From: a virus
Length of the DNA stretch: 20,286 nt
Direction: 5' to 3' (one strand)
Virus record (IMG/VR): IMGVR_UViG_3300020411_000404
Coordinates: 1-20,286 of that record
Made by a program: the position numbers and the translations under genes. Positions 15,939 to 20,286 of this stretch are shown in pieces. The number at the start of each line of letters is the position of its first letter. The first letter of the stretch is position 1. The notes under the pieces are model-generated. The model saw nothing but the letters and a program-made list of their open reading frames with translations, had not been told where the DNA came from and searched no databases.

Positions 15939-17174
15939 TTATAACCCCTGTGATATTCTGTTTGCCGTTAGTGTTTCTAGTTCTGCAAACGATAGTTCCA
16001 TTGTAATTTCAGTTGGTTTACCACCTGAATTTTGGAATGTTTGAAATGCTCCGTCAGGACCATATGTAACTTTACAATTTTCTAATATACAAGATGATAC
16101 TTTAGGCATGTTTGTATTTCTAGTAACAGATCCATCTGAGTTTCTGTGTTCAAATTCTATTGAAAATTCTGAAGGATATATTAAGAACATATCAGTATCT
16201 GAAACCGTAGGGTGCATATGATATTTAAATAATTGTATAATCTCCTCTACATTTTTATATTCACCTGGATTCCTAGGTGCAAAACTATATGTAAATGAAA
16301 ATTTCCTAAAGCCTATACTCTTAAATAATTGTTCCTTAAAAGGATTCATAACCTTTTTACTTGTTGCCTCGAATGCTGCTCCGGCATCCATGTTTATACC
16401 TGCCGCTTTAGGTATGTTAGCTGCTCCTCCTACTGTTCCTCTAATAACTGCCTCTGCACCTTCTCCAGATAAAAAGTCTCCTACTCCTGCTCTTCCTGTT
16501 GTAAGCATACCAGCCATTCCTAATTCCTCTTGATCCCAATTTGCTTGATATGCAGTAATTACAGATTGTGGAACGAAAAGTTGTATAGAGTCTAATAGTC
16601 TTACCGTTGTATTGTTTTCTGCTGCCATTTTGGCTGCTCCATATCCTACTACAGCAGTTCCTGCTGTTGTAAGAGCTTGACCAAAATTAGAGGCGTCGGC
16701 ATCTAAGATTTTACCTGATTTAATAGCTGTTGCTGTTCCTATAGCTGCTGTTAATGCTGAGGTATTTGCTAATGTGTTTTCGTATTGTTCTGCTTTTGCT
16801 CTATTTTCTTTAGTGTATTCTTCTTGATACGCTGCTTGTGCTGCGTCCATTTTATCTTTATTAGGGCCTGATAGTGCTGCTTGAGCTGCTGCTGAATTTC
16901 TTCTAGCGTTTATATAGAAATGTATTCCGTTAGGTTGACTCTCTGAATATAAATCTTGAGGGAAATAACGTGTGGTGCCATCTCCTCCTACTGTTCCTGA
17001 TTTTCTAGATTCACGTTGAGCTGCTACTTGATCATAGAATTTATCAGTAGGTTTACCTTGTTCTACTTTTTTCTTCTGATCTATTTCGTATTCTTTCTTT
17101 ACTTCATCAGCAGACTGGAACCAATCGCCTGGGTCCCACCATTGTTTTTCTGGACTTCCGTCAAACCATCCCAC
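15939..17174 (-). CDS. gp48: Baseplate tail-tube cap gp48-like protein
   Basis: The product is 411 aa, starting at GTG (17174) with AGGAG 8 nt upstream; no in-frame ATG fits. The N-terminus is Trp/Asp/Lys-rich (GWFDGSPEKQWWDPGDWF), then a helical, Ala-rich region, with RYFPQDLYSESQPNGIHFYI near 69-88 that I associate with marine gp48. The C-terminal 130 residues look like a tail-tube-fold domain: FRKFSFTYSFAPRNPGEY, IIQLFKYHMHP, a DMFLIYPSEFSIEFEH strand and a final EITMELSFAELETL strand. In T4 gp48 (364 aa) sits on the hub and, with gp54, starts the tail tube. It is first in the leftward operon. It could instead be gp54, since both share this fold. Confidence 0.72.
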   Translation of the reverse strand: MGWFDGSPEKQWWDPGDWFQSADEVKKEYEIDQKKKVEQGKPTDKFYDQVAAQRESRKSGTVGGDGTTRYFPQDLYSESQPNGIHFYINARRNSAAAQAALSGPNKDKMDAAQAAYQEEYTKENRAKAEQYENTLANTSALTAAIGTATAIKSGKILDADASNFGQALTTAGTAVVGYGAAKMAAENNTTVRLLDSIQLFVPQSVITAYQANWDQEELGMAGMLTTGRAGVGDFLSGEGAEAVIRGTVGGAANIPKAAGINMDAGAAFEATSKKVMNPFKEQLFKSIGFRKFSFTYSFAPRNPGEYKNVEEIIQLFKYHMHPTVSDTDMFLIYPSEFSIEFEHRNSDGSVTRNTNMPKVSSCILENCKVTYGPDGAFQTFQNSGGKPTEITMELSFAELETLTANRISQGL

Positions 17175-17182
17175 TATAAATA
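17175..17182 (+). promoter_or_regulatory. T4-type late promoter for the rightward operon (gp4)
   Basis: TATAAATA (extended TATAAATACT) on the plus strand is 28 nt upstream of the gp4 ATG. By T4 rules transcription would start near 17188, giving a leader of about 23 nt. The box lies between the Shine-Dalgarno and the GTG of the opposite gp48-like gene. Confidence 0.7.
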
Positions 17183-17187
17183 CTCCT
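17183..17187 (-). promoter_or_regulatory. Ribosome-binding site supporting the GTG start of the gp48-like gene
   Basis: Read leftward the bases are AGGAG, 8 nt before the GTG at 17174. This supports GTG as the true start. Confidence 0.75.
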
Positions 17188-17203
17188 ATAAGATTCTTTT
17201 TAT

Positions 17204-17211
17204 TATTTATA
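17204..17211 (-). promoter_or_regulatory. T4-type late promoter for the leftward baseplate operon
   Basis: TATAAATA (extended TATAAATAAT) reads leftward 29 nt upstream of the gp48-like GTG. Predicted transcript start is near 17198, leaving a leader that contains the AGGAG. Its first base overlaps the A of the gp4 ATG on the other strand. Confidence 0.65.
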
Positions 17212-17648
17212 TGGTTTATGCAAAAGAAATATACAAAGGAAGGTTTATTCCAAGAAATCCTTTAAAATATCTAGGAGACCCTAGTAACATAGTCTATCGC
17301 TCTAGTTATGAATTAAAGTTTATGAATTGGTGTGATCTTAATGAATCAATAAAAGGTTGGGTTTCAGAAGAAGTTTACATACCTTATCGTAATCCATTAG
17401 ATAATAAAGTCCGTAAATATCTTGTTGATTTCTATATAGAAGTAGACAACAAGAAGAGATATCTAGTAGAAGTAAAACCTGAACGGTTTACAAAACCTCC
17501 AGCAACACAGAAAAGAAAGACTAAAAGATACTTAGAAGAGGTTGCACAATACGGAGTAAATGAAGCCAAGTGGAAGTCTGCAAGAGACTTTTGTAAGAAA
17601 CAGAATATGGAATTTATGATTATTACCGAGAAGGACTTGGGCATTTAG
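17211..17648 (+). CDS. gp4: Head completion protein gp4 (TnsA-like nuclease fold)
   Basis: With the ATG at 17211 the product is 145 aa, close to T4 gp4 (150 aa). The frame continues upstream, but that would cross the promoter region and add an atypical hydrophobic Phe/Tyr-rich leader, so I reject the longer form. Motifs of the gp4/TnsA-like restriction-endonuclease fold are visible: YRSSYELKFMNWCD near 29-42 with Glu34, KYLVDFYI with Asp73, and YLVEVKPE with Glu87 and Lys89, the E-x-K pair. A basic KPPATQKRKTKRYLEE stretch follows near 95-110. In T4 gp4 (gp50) acts on DNA-filled heads before tail joining. The leader has only a weak ribosome-binding site. It is the first gene of the rightward operon. 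Confidence 0.88.
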   Translation: MVYAKEIYKGRFIPRNPLKYLGDPSNIVYRSSYELKFMNWCDLNESIKGWVSEEVYIPYRNPLDNKVRKYLVDFYIEVDNKKRYLVEVKPERFTKPPATQKRKTKRYLEEVAQYGVNEAKWKSARDFCKKQNMEFMIITEKDLGI

Positions 17649-18999: not shown

Positions 19000-19695
19000 A
19001 TGGCACTACCAAAAATTGATACGCCAAGATTTAACGGAACAATTGCTTCTTCAGGTGAAGAAGTTACATTTAGACCGTTTAAAGTTAAGGAAGAAAAAAT
19101 CCTTATGTTGGCGAGTGAAGGTGGCGAATATAAGGACATGGTTAATGCATGTGCTCAAATCGTCAGTAATTGCGTTGAAAACCTCAACGCTTATGAGCTA
19201 CCAATATTTGACTTACAAGATTTGTTTATTCAAATCAGAAGTAAATCAGATGGAGCGTTAGCTAATTTTAAATTAACTTGTGGAAATGATGATTGTGGTG
19301 AGTCTATCCCTTATGAGATGGACCTAACAGAATTTAAAATGACTGGACTAGATAATAGACCAAATGATGTAATACAAGTTTCAGAGGATATGATTATTAA
19401 ATTAAAATATCCAAACGCTGCAATGGCATCTGTAATTGATGAATTAGATGATGCCGTATTAGTAGCAAAATGTATAGAACATGTTGTTGATGGAGAAGAA
19501 ACAATTAATGTTGAAGAAGAACCAATTGAAGATGTTGTTAATTTTGTAGAAGATCTTCCCATTGATACTTTTAAGGAAATCCAGTCTTTCTTTACAAATA
19601 TGCCAATGATGGAACATGTTGTAGAATACACATGTCCTAAATGTGAGCATGATAACAGGATAAGTATTAATGGTTACGAACATTTTTTCGGCTAA
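19000..19695 (+). CDS. gp26: Baseplate hub assembly protein gp26
   Basis: The product is 231 aa (T4 gp26 is 208), with AGGAG well placed before the ATG. MALPKIDTPRFN near 1-12 and TFRPFKVKEEKILMLASE near 23-40 are the hallmark of the T4 baseplate hub gp26 family. The middle is helical and acidic. Four cysteines, Cys94 and Cys99 (CGNDDC) and Cys212 and Cys215 (CPKC), suggest a split zinc-binding site. In T4 gp26 is needed for hub assembly. The gene ends FFG-stop, and its last sense codons form a U UUU UUC slip site. A -1 shift after Phe230 would add 62 residues, for a 292-aa product. Located directly before the presumed tape measure gene, it occupies the place of tail assembly chaperones in other phages. 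Confidence 0.88.
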   Translation: MALPKIDTPRFNGTIASSGEEVTFRPFKVKEEKILMLASEGGEYKDMVNACAQIVSNCVENLNAYELPIFDLQDLFIQIRSKSDGALANFKLTCGNDDCGESIPYEMDLTEFKMTGLDNRPNDVIQVSEDMIIKLKYPNAAMASVIDELDDAVLVAKCIEHVVDGEETINVEEEPIEDVVNFVEDLPIDTFKEIQSFFTNMPMMEHVVEYTCPKCEHDNRISINGYEHFFG

Positions 19696-19711
19696 CTCTT
19701 TCTCAGGAAAG
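19683..19711 (+). promoter_or_regulatory. Predicted -1 ribosomal frameshift site (slippery heptamer plus hairpin)
   Basis: TTTTTTC at 19683-19689 is a canonical X XXY YYZ heptamer in the gp26 frame (codons TTT TTC). The zero-frame stop TAA is at 19693-19695. After 8 nt a small hairpin can form, with stem CTTTC (19698-19702), loop TCAG and stem GAAAG (19707-19711). Both the spacing and the frame of the downstream open region fit -1 slippage. The stem is only five pairs. Confidence 0.65.
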
Positions 19712-19877
19712 TCTTGCGAATTACTACAAGACAAATTTCCTGTTGATGCAAGAACATCATTATTCTTTAACGGAACTAGAAGAAATGATGCCATGGGAAA
19801 GAGAGGTTTATGTTTCAATGTTAATAGAGCATCTTAATAAGAAGGCGGAAAAACAAAAGGCACAAAATAAATTTTAA
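19689..19877 (+). CDS. -1 frame extension of gp26 (small second tail chaperone, gp51-like)
   Basis: This frame is open from just upstream of the slip site to the TAA at 19875. Entered by -1 slippage it adds 62 residues: RLTLSQESLANYY, a hydrophobic NFLLMQ, then HHYSLTELEEMMPWEREVYVSMLIEHL and a lysine/glutamine-rich end. The pattern of EL, MPWE and a following helix is typical of second-frame tail assembly chaperone segments, and I recall similar short proteins labelled gp51 in marine T4-likes, although T4 gp51 itself is much longer. The only ATG near the front (19746) has no Shine-Dalgarno and would leave 43 residues, cutting off the conserved front half. I therefore prefer the fusion reading. 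A separate weakly initiated small protein is the alternative. Confidence 0.65.
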   Translation, partial: RLTLSQESLANYYKTNFLLMQEHHYSLTELEEMMPWEREVYVSMLIEHLNKKAEKQKAQNKF

Positions 19878-19887
19878 GGTTAAGTAA

Positions 19888-20286
19888 ATGGCTATAGAAA
19901 AAGATTTAGAAAAGGCGTTACAAGGATTAGAAAAGCTGCATAAGAAAATGCCAGATACGGATCTTTCTACGTCTAAAGAAATTAAAAAGATAGAGACTTT
20001 AGTTGAGGAAATCGAAGAGAATGCTAAAGGCGAACGTGAGCAACTCACGAAAATGGCCAAACAAAACAACAACGCTAACAATGCACAGATTGCCAAGGAG
20101 ATTTGGACTTATCAACAAGACCAAGCGATGGCAAAAGGACAGAAAAAACACTTTAGAGGAGCCAAAAAATCTCGAACAAGAATCGAGAATATGAATAAAG
20201 AGATATTATCCATACTTAAAAATGCCCCTGCCGTTGGTGGTGGCGGTGGCGCTGGTGGTGGAGGTGGCTCTGGCGGGGGCTCTGGA
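19888..20286 (+). CDS. N-terminus of a probable tape measure/large tail protein, cut by window edge
   Basis: The frame opens at ATG 19888 (AAGG about 8 nt upstream) and runs 133 codons to the right edge without a stop. Residues 1-60 are highly charged helix with coiled-coil character (MAIEKDLEKALQGLEKLHKK, then KEIKKIETLVEEIEEN). Residues 60-112 remain helical and become basic (KGQKKHFRGAKKSRTR near 83-98). From residue 117 on there is an almost pure glycine/serine/alanine run up to the edge. Tape measure genes normally follow the chaperone frameshift pair, and coiled coils are usual in them, so I infer a gp29-like tape measure; a hub protein such as gp28 is possible. There is not enough sequence to be sure. 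Confidence 0.55.
   Translation, partial: MAIEKDLEKALQGLEKLHKKMPDTDLSTSKEIKKIETLVEEIEENAKGEREQLTKMAKQNNNANNAQIAKEIWTYQQDQAMAKGQKKHFRGAKKSRTRIENMNKEILSILKNAPAVGGGGGAGGGGGSGGGSG
20236..20286 (+). repeat. Poly-glycine/serine linker coding repeat
   Basis: From residue 117 of the last gene, 17 codons up to the edge are GGN with single Ala or Ser interruptions (GGGGGAGGGGGSGGGSG). This is locally GC-rich in a very AT-rich genome. It continues beyond the window. Confidence 0.8.

Follow-up and report, generated by a model that had tools for sequence, protein, structure and literature searches.

A predicted -1 frameshift joining gp26 to a gp51-family extension in a marine T4-like virus and its relatives

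In the tail-assembly chaperone loci of phages lambda (G/GT) and P2 (E/E'), a short gene carries a slippery heptamer just before its stop codon, a -1 frame extension follows, and the tape-measure gene lies downstream. Both pairs have reportedly been described as products of frameshifting, by Xu et al. in 2004 for lambda G/GT and by Christie et al. in 2002 for P2 E/E'. The locus studied here raises the question of whether gene 26 of a T4-like virus is read in the same way, and how the T4 hub factors gp26 and gp51 would then be related. We analyzed an IMG/VR record of 20,286 bases from a marine T4-like virus (the window, i.e. the whole stretch of DNA) together with related loci. The reading that we favor, with a probability of about 0.92, is that a programmed -1 frameshift at U UUU UUC yields two forms of a chaperone, gp26 (short) and a gp26-51 fusion (long); the occurrence of slippage, its efficiency and the action of the chaperone on the tape measure are the parts of this reading that we infer.

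Gene 26 and its -1 frame in the window

The features of the locus are as follows.

19000..19695, + strand: gene 26 (gp26, 231 aa), predicted short-form tail-assembly chaperone of TAC-N type (PF12322, phrog_150, AlphaFold2)
19683..19689, + strand: slippery heptamer T TTT TTC in the gp26 frame, predicted -1 slip site (sequence, T6 conservation)
19683..19877, + strand: -1 frame extension of 64 codons plus TAA, gp51-family C-terminal part of the predicted fusion (phrog_634, tblastn, codon-position bias)
19693..19695, + strand: gp26 stop TAA, one codon past the end of the heptamer (sequence)
19698..19711, + strand: small possible hairpin CTTTC-TCAG-GAAAG with a 5-bp stem, after an 8-nt spacer (sequence; not conserved)
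19746..19748, + strand: internal ATG of the -1 frame (codon 22), without a ribosome-binding site; a separate gp51 starts hereabouts in many public records
19888..20286, + strand: next gene, incomplete at the window end; its position, with a gene order matching HTVC008M, makes it a tape-measure candidate

At the junction the gp26 frame reads CAT TTT TTC GGC TAA, with the single codon GGC between the heptamer and the stop, and the predicted junction of gp26 with the -1 frame spans EHFFRLTLSQESLANYYK. An upstream -1 stop at 19668-19670 and the terminal TAA at 19875-19877 bound the -1 frame, which stays open over 19671-19874; its candidate start codons are all internal (TTG at 19743, then ATG at 19746, 19785, 19788 and 19818), and none has a ribosome-binding site. 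The original prediction had described a heptamer in the gp26 register near the stop, an open -1 frame with no well-placed start and a tape-measure candidate 10 nt downstream, and we confirmed all three: the heptamer has the predicted sequence and position, the 64 codons contain internal starts only, and 10 nt separate the -1 stop from the ATG at 19888 of the ORF called tape measure. In HTVC008M an annotated tape measure lies downstream of gp51, and the gene order of the window agrees with this; the window ORF is incomplete and was placed by position. This ORF ends in a glycine-rich run (20232-20286). Elsewhere in the window, the ORF at 17016-17648 probably has an over-extended start, because its head-closure match spans residues 72-209 only.

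The window gp26 matches PF12322 (T4_baseplate) over residues 14-230 at 1.4e-51 (175.7 bits, with a curated cut-off of 24.5) and phrog_150 (baseplate hub) at 1.6e-57. Against phrog_634 (gp51, baseplate hub assembly catalyst) the 64-residue extension gives 4.2e-26, and against the C-terminus of phrog_150 it gives 4.2e-07; we assign the -1 frame to the gp51 family. By tblastn the extension was found in 665 phage records; the best 60 of these 665 matches show 60-71% identity, with alignments beginning at residue 1, i.e. at the slip site, and the 60 best matches of gp26 show ∼32-36% identity. AlphaFold2 modeled the window gp26 with a pLDDT of 94.1 and a T4-type gp51 with a pLDDT of 90.6, the latter having a similar order of elements plus extra C-terminal helices. 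Searches for solved relatives found none by sequence and none that was significant by fold, the Foldseek match to the HK97 chaperone gp13 being insignificant (2ob9; E 2.6, probability 0.18).

Under the proposed mechanism, most ribosomes translating gene 26 would terminate at the TAA at 19693 to give the 231-residue gp26 as the short form. On CAT TTT TTC, the two tRNA-Phe could each move back by one base on U UUU UUC, and a minority of ribosomes would therefore continue in the -1 frame to 19874, giving the 292-residue gp26-51 fusion as the long form. If lambda G/GT is a guide, coating of the tape-measure protein would fall to the short form, and the resulting complex would be joined to the tube or baseplate by the long form.

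Conservation of the slip site and translation of the extension

We searched IMG/VR and GTDB contigs using patterns drawn from the extension alone, and the heptamer was therefore not a selection criterion. This retrieved 92 loci, one of which ends upstream of the slip site, leaving 91. In all 91 a TTTTTT run stands at the junction in the same register, and each of the four bases occurs after it; in each locus the gp26 frame upstream of the T6 is open for ∼230 codons (162 in one contig-truncated case) and the gp26 stop comes soon after it. The same layout is found in HTVC008M, Mosig, P-SSM2, Syn9, S-RSM4, Cr30, pf16, Ochrobactrum OC, Milchi, Ps15, SRB7757, Vibrio D480, Aeh1, phiAS5, LPCS28, PhiW-14 and Atu_ph04, and the annotated carriers come from several families. 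A pooled set of 110 distinct extensions, chosen for a T6 in register, was used for the finer comparisons; in 96 of the 110 the distance from the start of the heptamer to the start of the gp26 stop is 10 nt. The comparison of gp26 3' ends across T4-like phages that had been proposed at the outset therefore came out in favor of the prediction: the heptamer and the extension's frame are conserved, and so is the absence of an internal initiation signal.

An alternative is that the second frame is an independent short gp51 gene begun at the internal ATG (19746 in the window). In public records the extension is either called as its own gp51 gene (roughly 40-62 aa) or goes unannotated, the HTVC008M, S-RSM4 and Mosig records annotating a gp51 of 44-45 aa from an internal start, and an ATG at extension codon 21 or 22 is common among the distinct sequences. 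However, no Shine-Dalgarno sequence was found at the internal ATGs of the 110 extensions: with an E. coli type anti-Shine-Dalgarno the mean duplex energy there is -0.24 kcal/mol, weaker than at random gp26 positions (-1.40), the values for gp26 starts and downstream gene starts being -5.17 and -3.54 kcal/mol, respectively. In addition, the -1 frame is conserved at the protein level over the ∼19 residues before the ATG. Of the substitutions in the 45 nt that separate the usual gp26 stop from the internal ATG, 23, 18 and 59% are at -1 codon positions 1, 2 and 3, respectively (461 pairs of close sequences, the pairs not being independent), and across the 110 distinct extensions this stretch evolves as coding sequence of the -1 frame. 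The T6 is also kept in every locus from the extension-pattern search, and T4 gp51 holds the whole extension fused to a gp26-like domain. We rejected independent initiation on the Shine-Dalgarno strength and the conservation upstream of the ATG, and regard a separate gp51 gene as highly improbable. The same fusion could be made without ribosomal slippage if RNA polymerase slipped on the T run; the site is a homopolymer and has 7-8 T in 16 of the 110 distinct sequences, but in the other 94 the run is exactly six, which is shorter than polymerase slippage usually needs. As the 110 sequences were selected for a T6 in register, the register is not independent evidence against such transcriptional slippage, which we consider very unlikely.

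Translational coupling would instead have ribosomes that finish gp26 restart at an overlapping -1 frame ATG, giving a free extension. An overlap of the gp26 stop with such an ATG (TGATG or TAATG) does occur at some loci (L103, L108, L115, L117, L119 and L172; phages Cr30, Vibrio D480, PhiW-14, Atu_ph04, Ps15 and Dickeya Ds23CZ), but it is missing in most relatives, and the window offers no such overlap, the heptamer being followed by CTAACTC and the first -1 ATG lying ∼50 nt past the stop; we judge it extremely unlikely as an account of the locus. Chance alone can also place a heptamer in register, since the 6,528 codons of the main ORFs of the window contain 20 canonical XXXYYYZ heptamers in register, the one at gene 26 being the sole T6 case. 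The probability by dinucleotide shuffling of an open -1 frame is ∼1.5% at the window locus and averages 0.9% per locus, and the site, the frame and the protein are conserved across hundreds of phages, leaving a functionless coincidence with a negligible probability. The comparative evidence strongly favors a programmed -1 frameshift on the heptamer.

The original prediction had also included a hairpin 8 nt after the heptamer. The hairpin is present in the window but is not conserved: all five CTTTC/GAAAG pairs are kept in 5 of 15 sequences (the window and close relatives) and in 11 of 110 overall, and it was therefore ruled out as a general stimulator of the frameshift. RNAalifold gave no consensus pair downstream of the heptamer among the 15 close sequences, the energy profile over the 110 sequences had no clear dip there, and Rfam returned no match to a downstream RNA structure. 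A stimulatory element is frequent but not obligatory, and is therefore not decisive for whether a locus belongs among -1 frameshift sites.

T4 gp26 and gp51 and published chaperone genes

PF12322 matches T4 gp26 and T4 gp51 alike along almost all of the gp26 length, the C-terminal continuation of T4 gp51 matches phrog_634, and in an alignment of T4-type proteins gp51 continues past the point at which gp26 ends. T4 gp26 and gp51 are paralogues, gp51 consisting of a gp26-like domain plus the extension. T4 gene 26 has no slip site of this kind: many T4-type copies of the gene retain the Phe-Phe end, but code it as TTC TTT, which is not slippery. T4 has two separate genes without the heptamer, whereas the window has one gene and a predicted frameshift. 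Of the loci that we examined, 129 have the T6. Another 28 lack it and have two PF12322 genes, 12 (Vibrio phage D531 among them) are of the Ackermannviridae type, and one is a truncated T4-type contig. Those with the heptamer have one gene with a -1 extension, and among all of them the heptamer and the T4-type two-gene layout never occur together. A tree groups the proteins into the frameshift type, T4-type gp26 and T4-type gp51, but the search behind it was quick and not bootstrapped and its root cannot be placed; we therefore make no claim about the ancestral state.

Both gp26 and gp51 are listed as T4 hub assembly chaperones, and gp51 is needed for assembly yet absent from the T4 particle (PMC3004832). 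By sequence, gp26 and the gp26-51 fusion are consistent with a tail-assembly chaperone whose short and long forms have the N-terminal domain in common, and in T4 two paralogous genes, 26 and 51, would supply these forms. The two T4 hub factors could then be read as one chaperone in a short and a long version, and the annotation of the gene pair would be corrected in the many T4-like phages where gp51 has been given an internal start or is omitted.

The window, with its tape-measure candidate downstream, shares its layout with lambda G/GT and P2 E/E', as had been predicted, and the T6, the open frame and the coding evolution of the extension support this core reading; its function would follow by analogy. 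The likeness is one of layout; the gp26 domain is larger, and many members have CxxC pairs. Closer to the window, Vladimirov, Gautam and Davidson (Virology 2022, pmid 34826709), as cited by PMC10885494 and PMC12846349, anticipated the frameshift link for T4-like tail-assembly chaperones, and are credited in these two papers with T4-like phages in which a short chaperone gene accompanies a fused long one and with poly-T frameshift signals in the short gene. By our own matches the chaperone of the window is of the same family (PF12322 plus a gp51-type C-terminus), the window differing in coming from an unannotated marine virus. The frameshift signature holds up and is conserved widely; the general idea, to judge from these citations, is already published for T4-like phages. 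The tie between gp26/gp51 and the tail-chaperone system drawn in the original prediction therefore holds, through the gp51 family match and the T4 paralogy, but its novelty does not. With the general idea in print, the value of the present analysis lies in confirmation, in breadth and in a few testable exceptions. For the Vandenendeviridae/Andersonviridae chaperone locus (Pseudomonas phage Adele), a -1 frameshift has likewise been proposed, at a poly-T motif where the short chaperone gene ends; the second frame there is often annotated as a separate hypothetical gene (PMC12846349). The Adele-type locus has a GTTTTT motif in place of T TTT TTY and belongs to a different phage family; its likeness to the window is one of layout.

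Loci that depart from the canonical site

In Ackermannviridae and Vibrio phage D531 the canonical heptamer is missing and the -1 extension is still open (loci L118, L120, L136-L145, L172 and L173). The site at the 3' end of the gp26 gene reads A ATT TTC in Vi01 and Dickeya Ds23CZ, A CTT TTC in Vibrio D531 and C CTT TTT in Kuja, and G ATT TTC also occurs among the non-canonical sites of this group. Two marine contigs (L035:1114-2510 and L036:1113-2510) have tandem PF12322 genes, in which the upstream copy is short-only, has no heptamer and is 38-41% identical to the adjoining frameshift copy. These Ackermannviridae and the contigs with a tandem short-only copy are less explored ground. We suggest, tentatively and with considerable doubt, that a frameshift gene may have been converted to short-only and long-form genes more than once: completely in the T4-type loci, and by a tandem short-only copy in L035 and L036. 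On the same tentative footing, Ackermannviridae would still make the long form at the non-canonical site (A AUU UUC in Vi01 and Ds23CZ, C CUU UUU in Kuja, and A CUU UUC in the related D531), perhaps via single-tRNA slippage.

Two further observations concern individual records. In S-SCSM1 (L113, around 2466-2662) the heptamer is kept and the conserved extension lies in another frame, perhaps through an indel or a sequence error. Loci L085-L096 are T4-like phage sequence on contigs whose bins had been assigned to archaea or bacteria (Euryarchaeota, Bacteroidetes, Actinomycetota and others).
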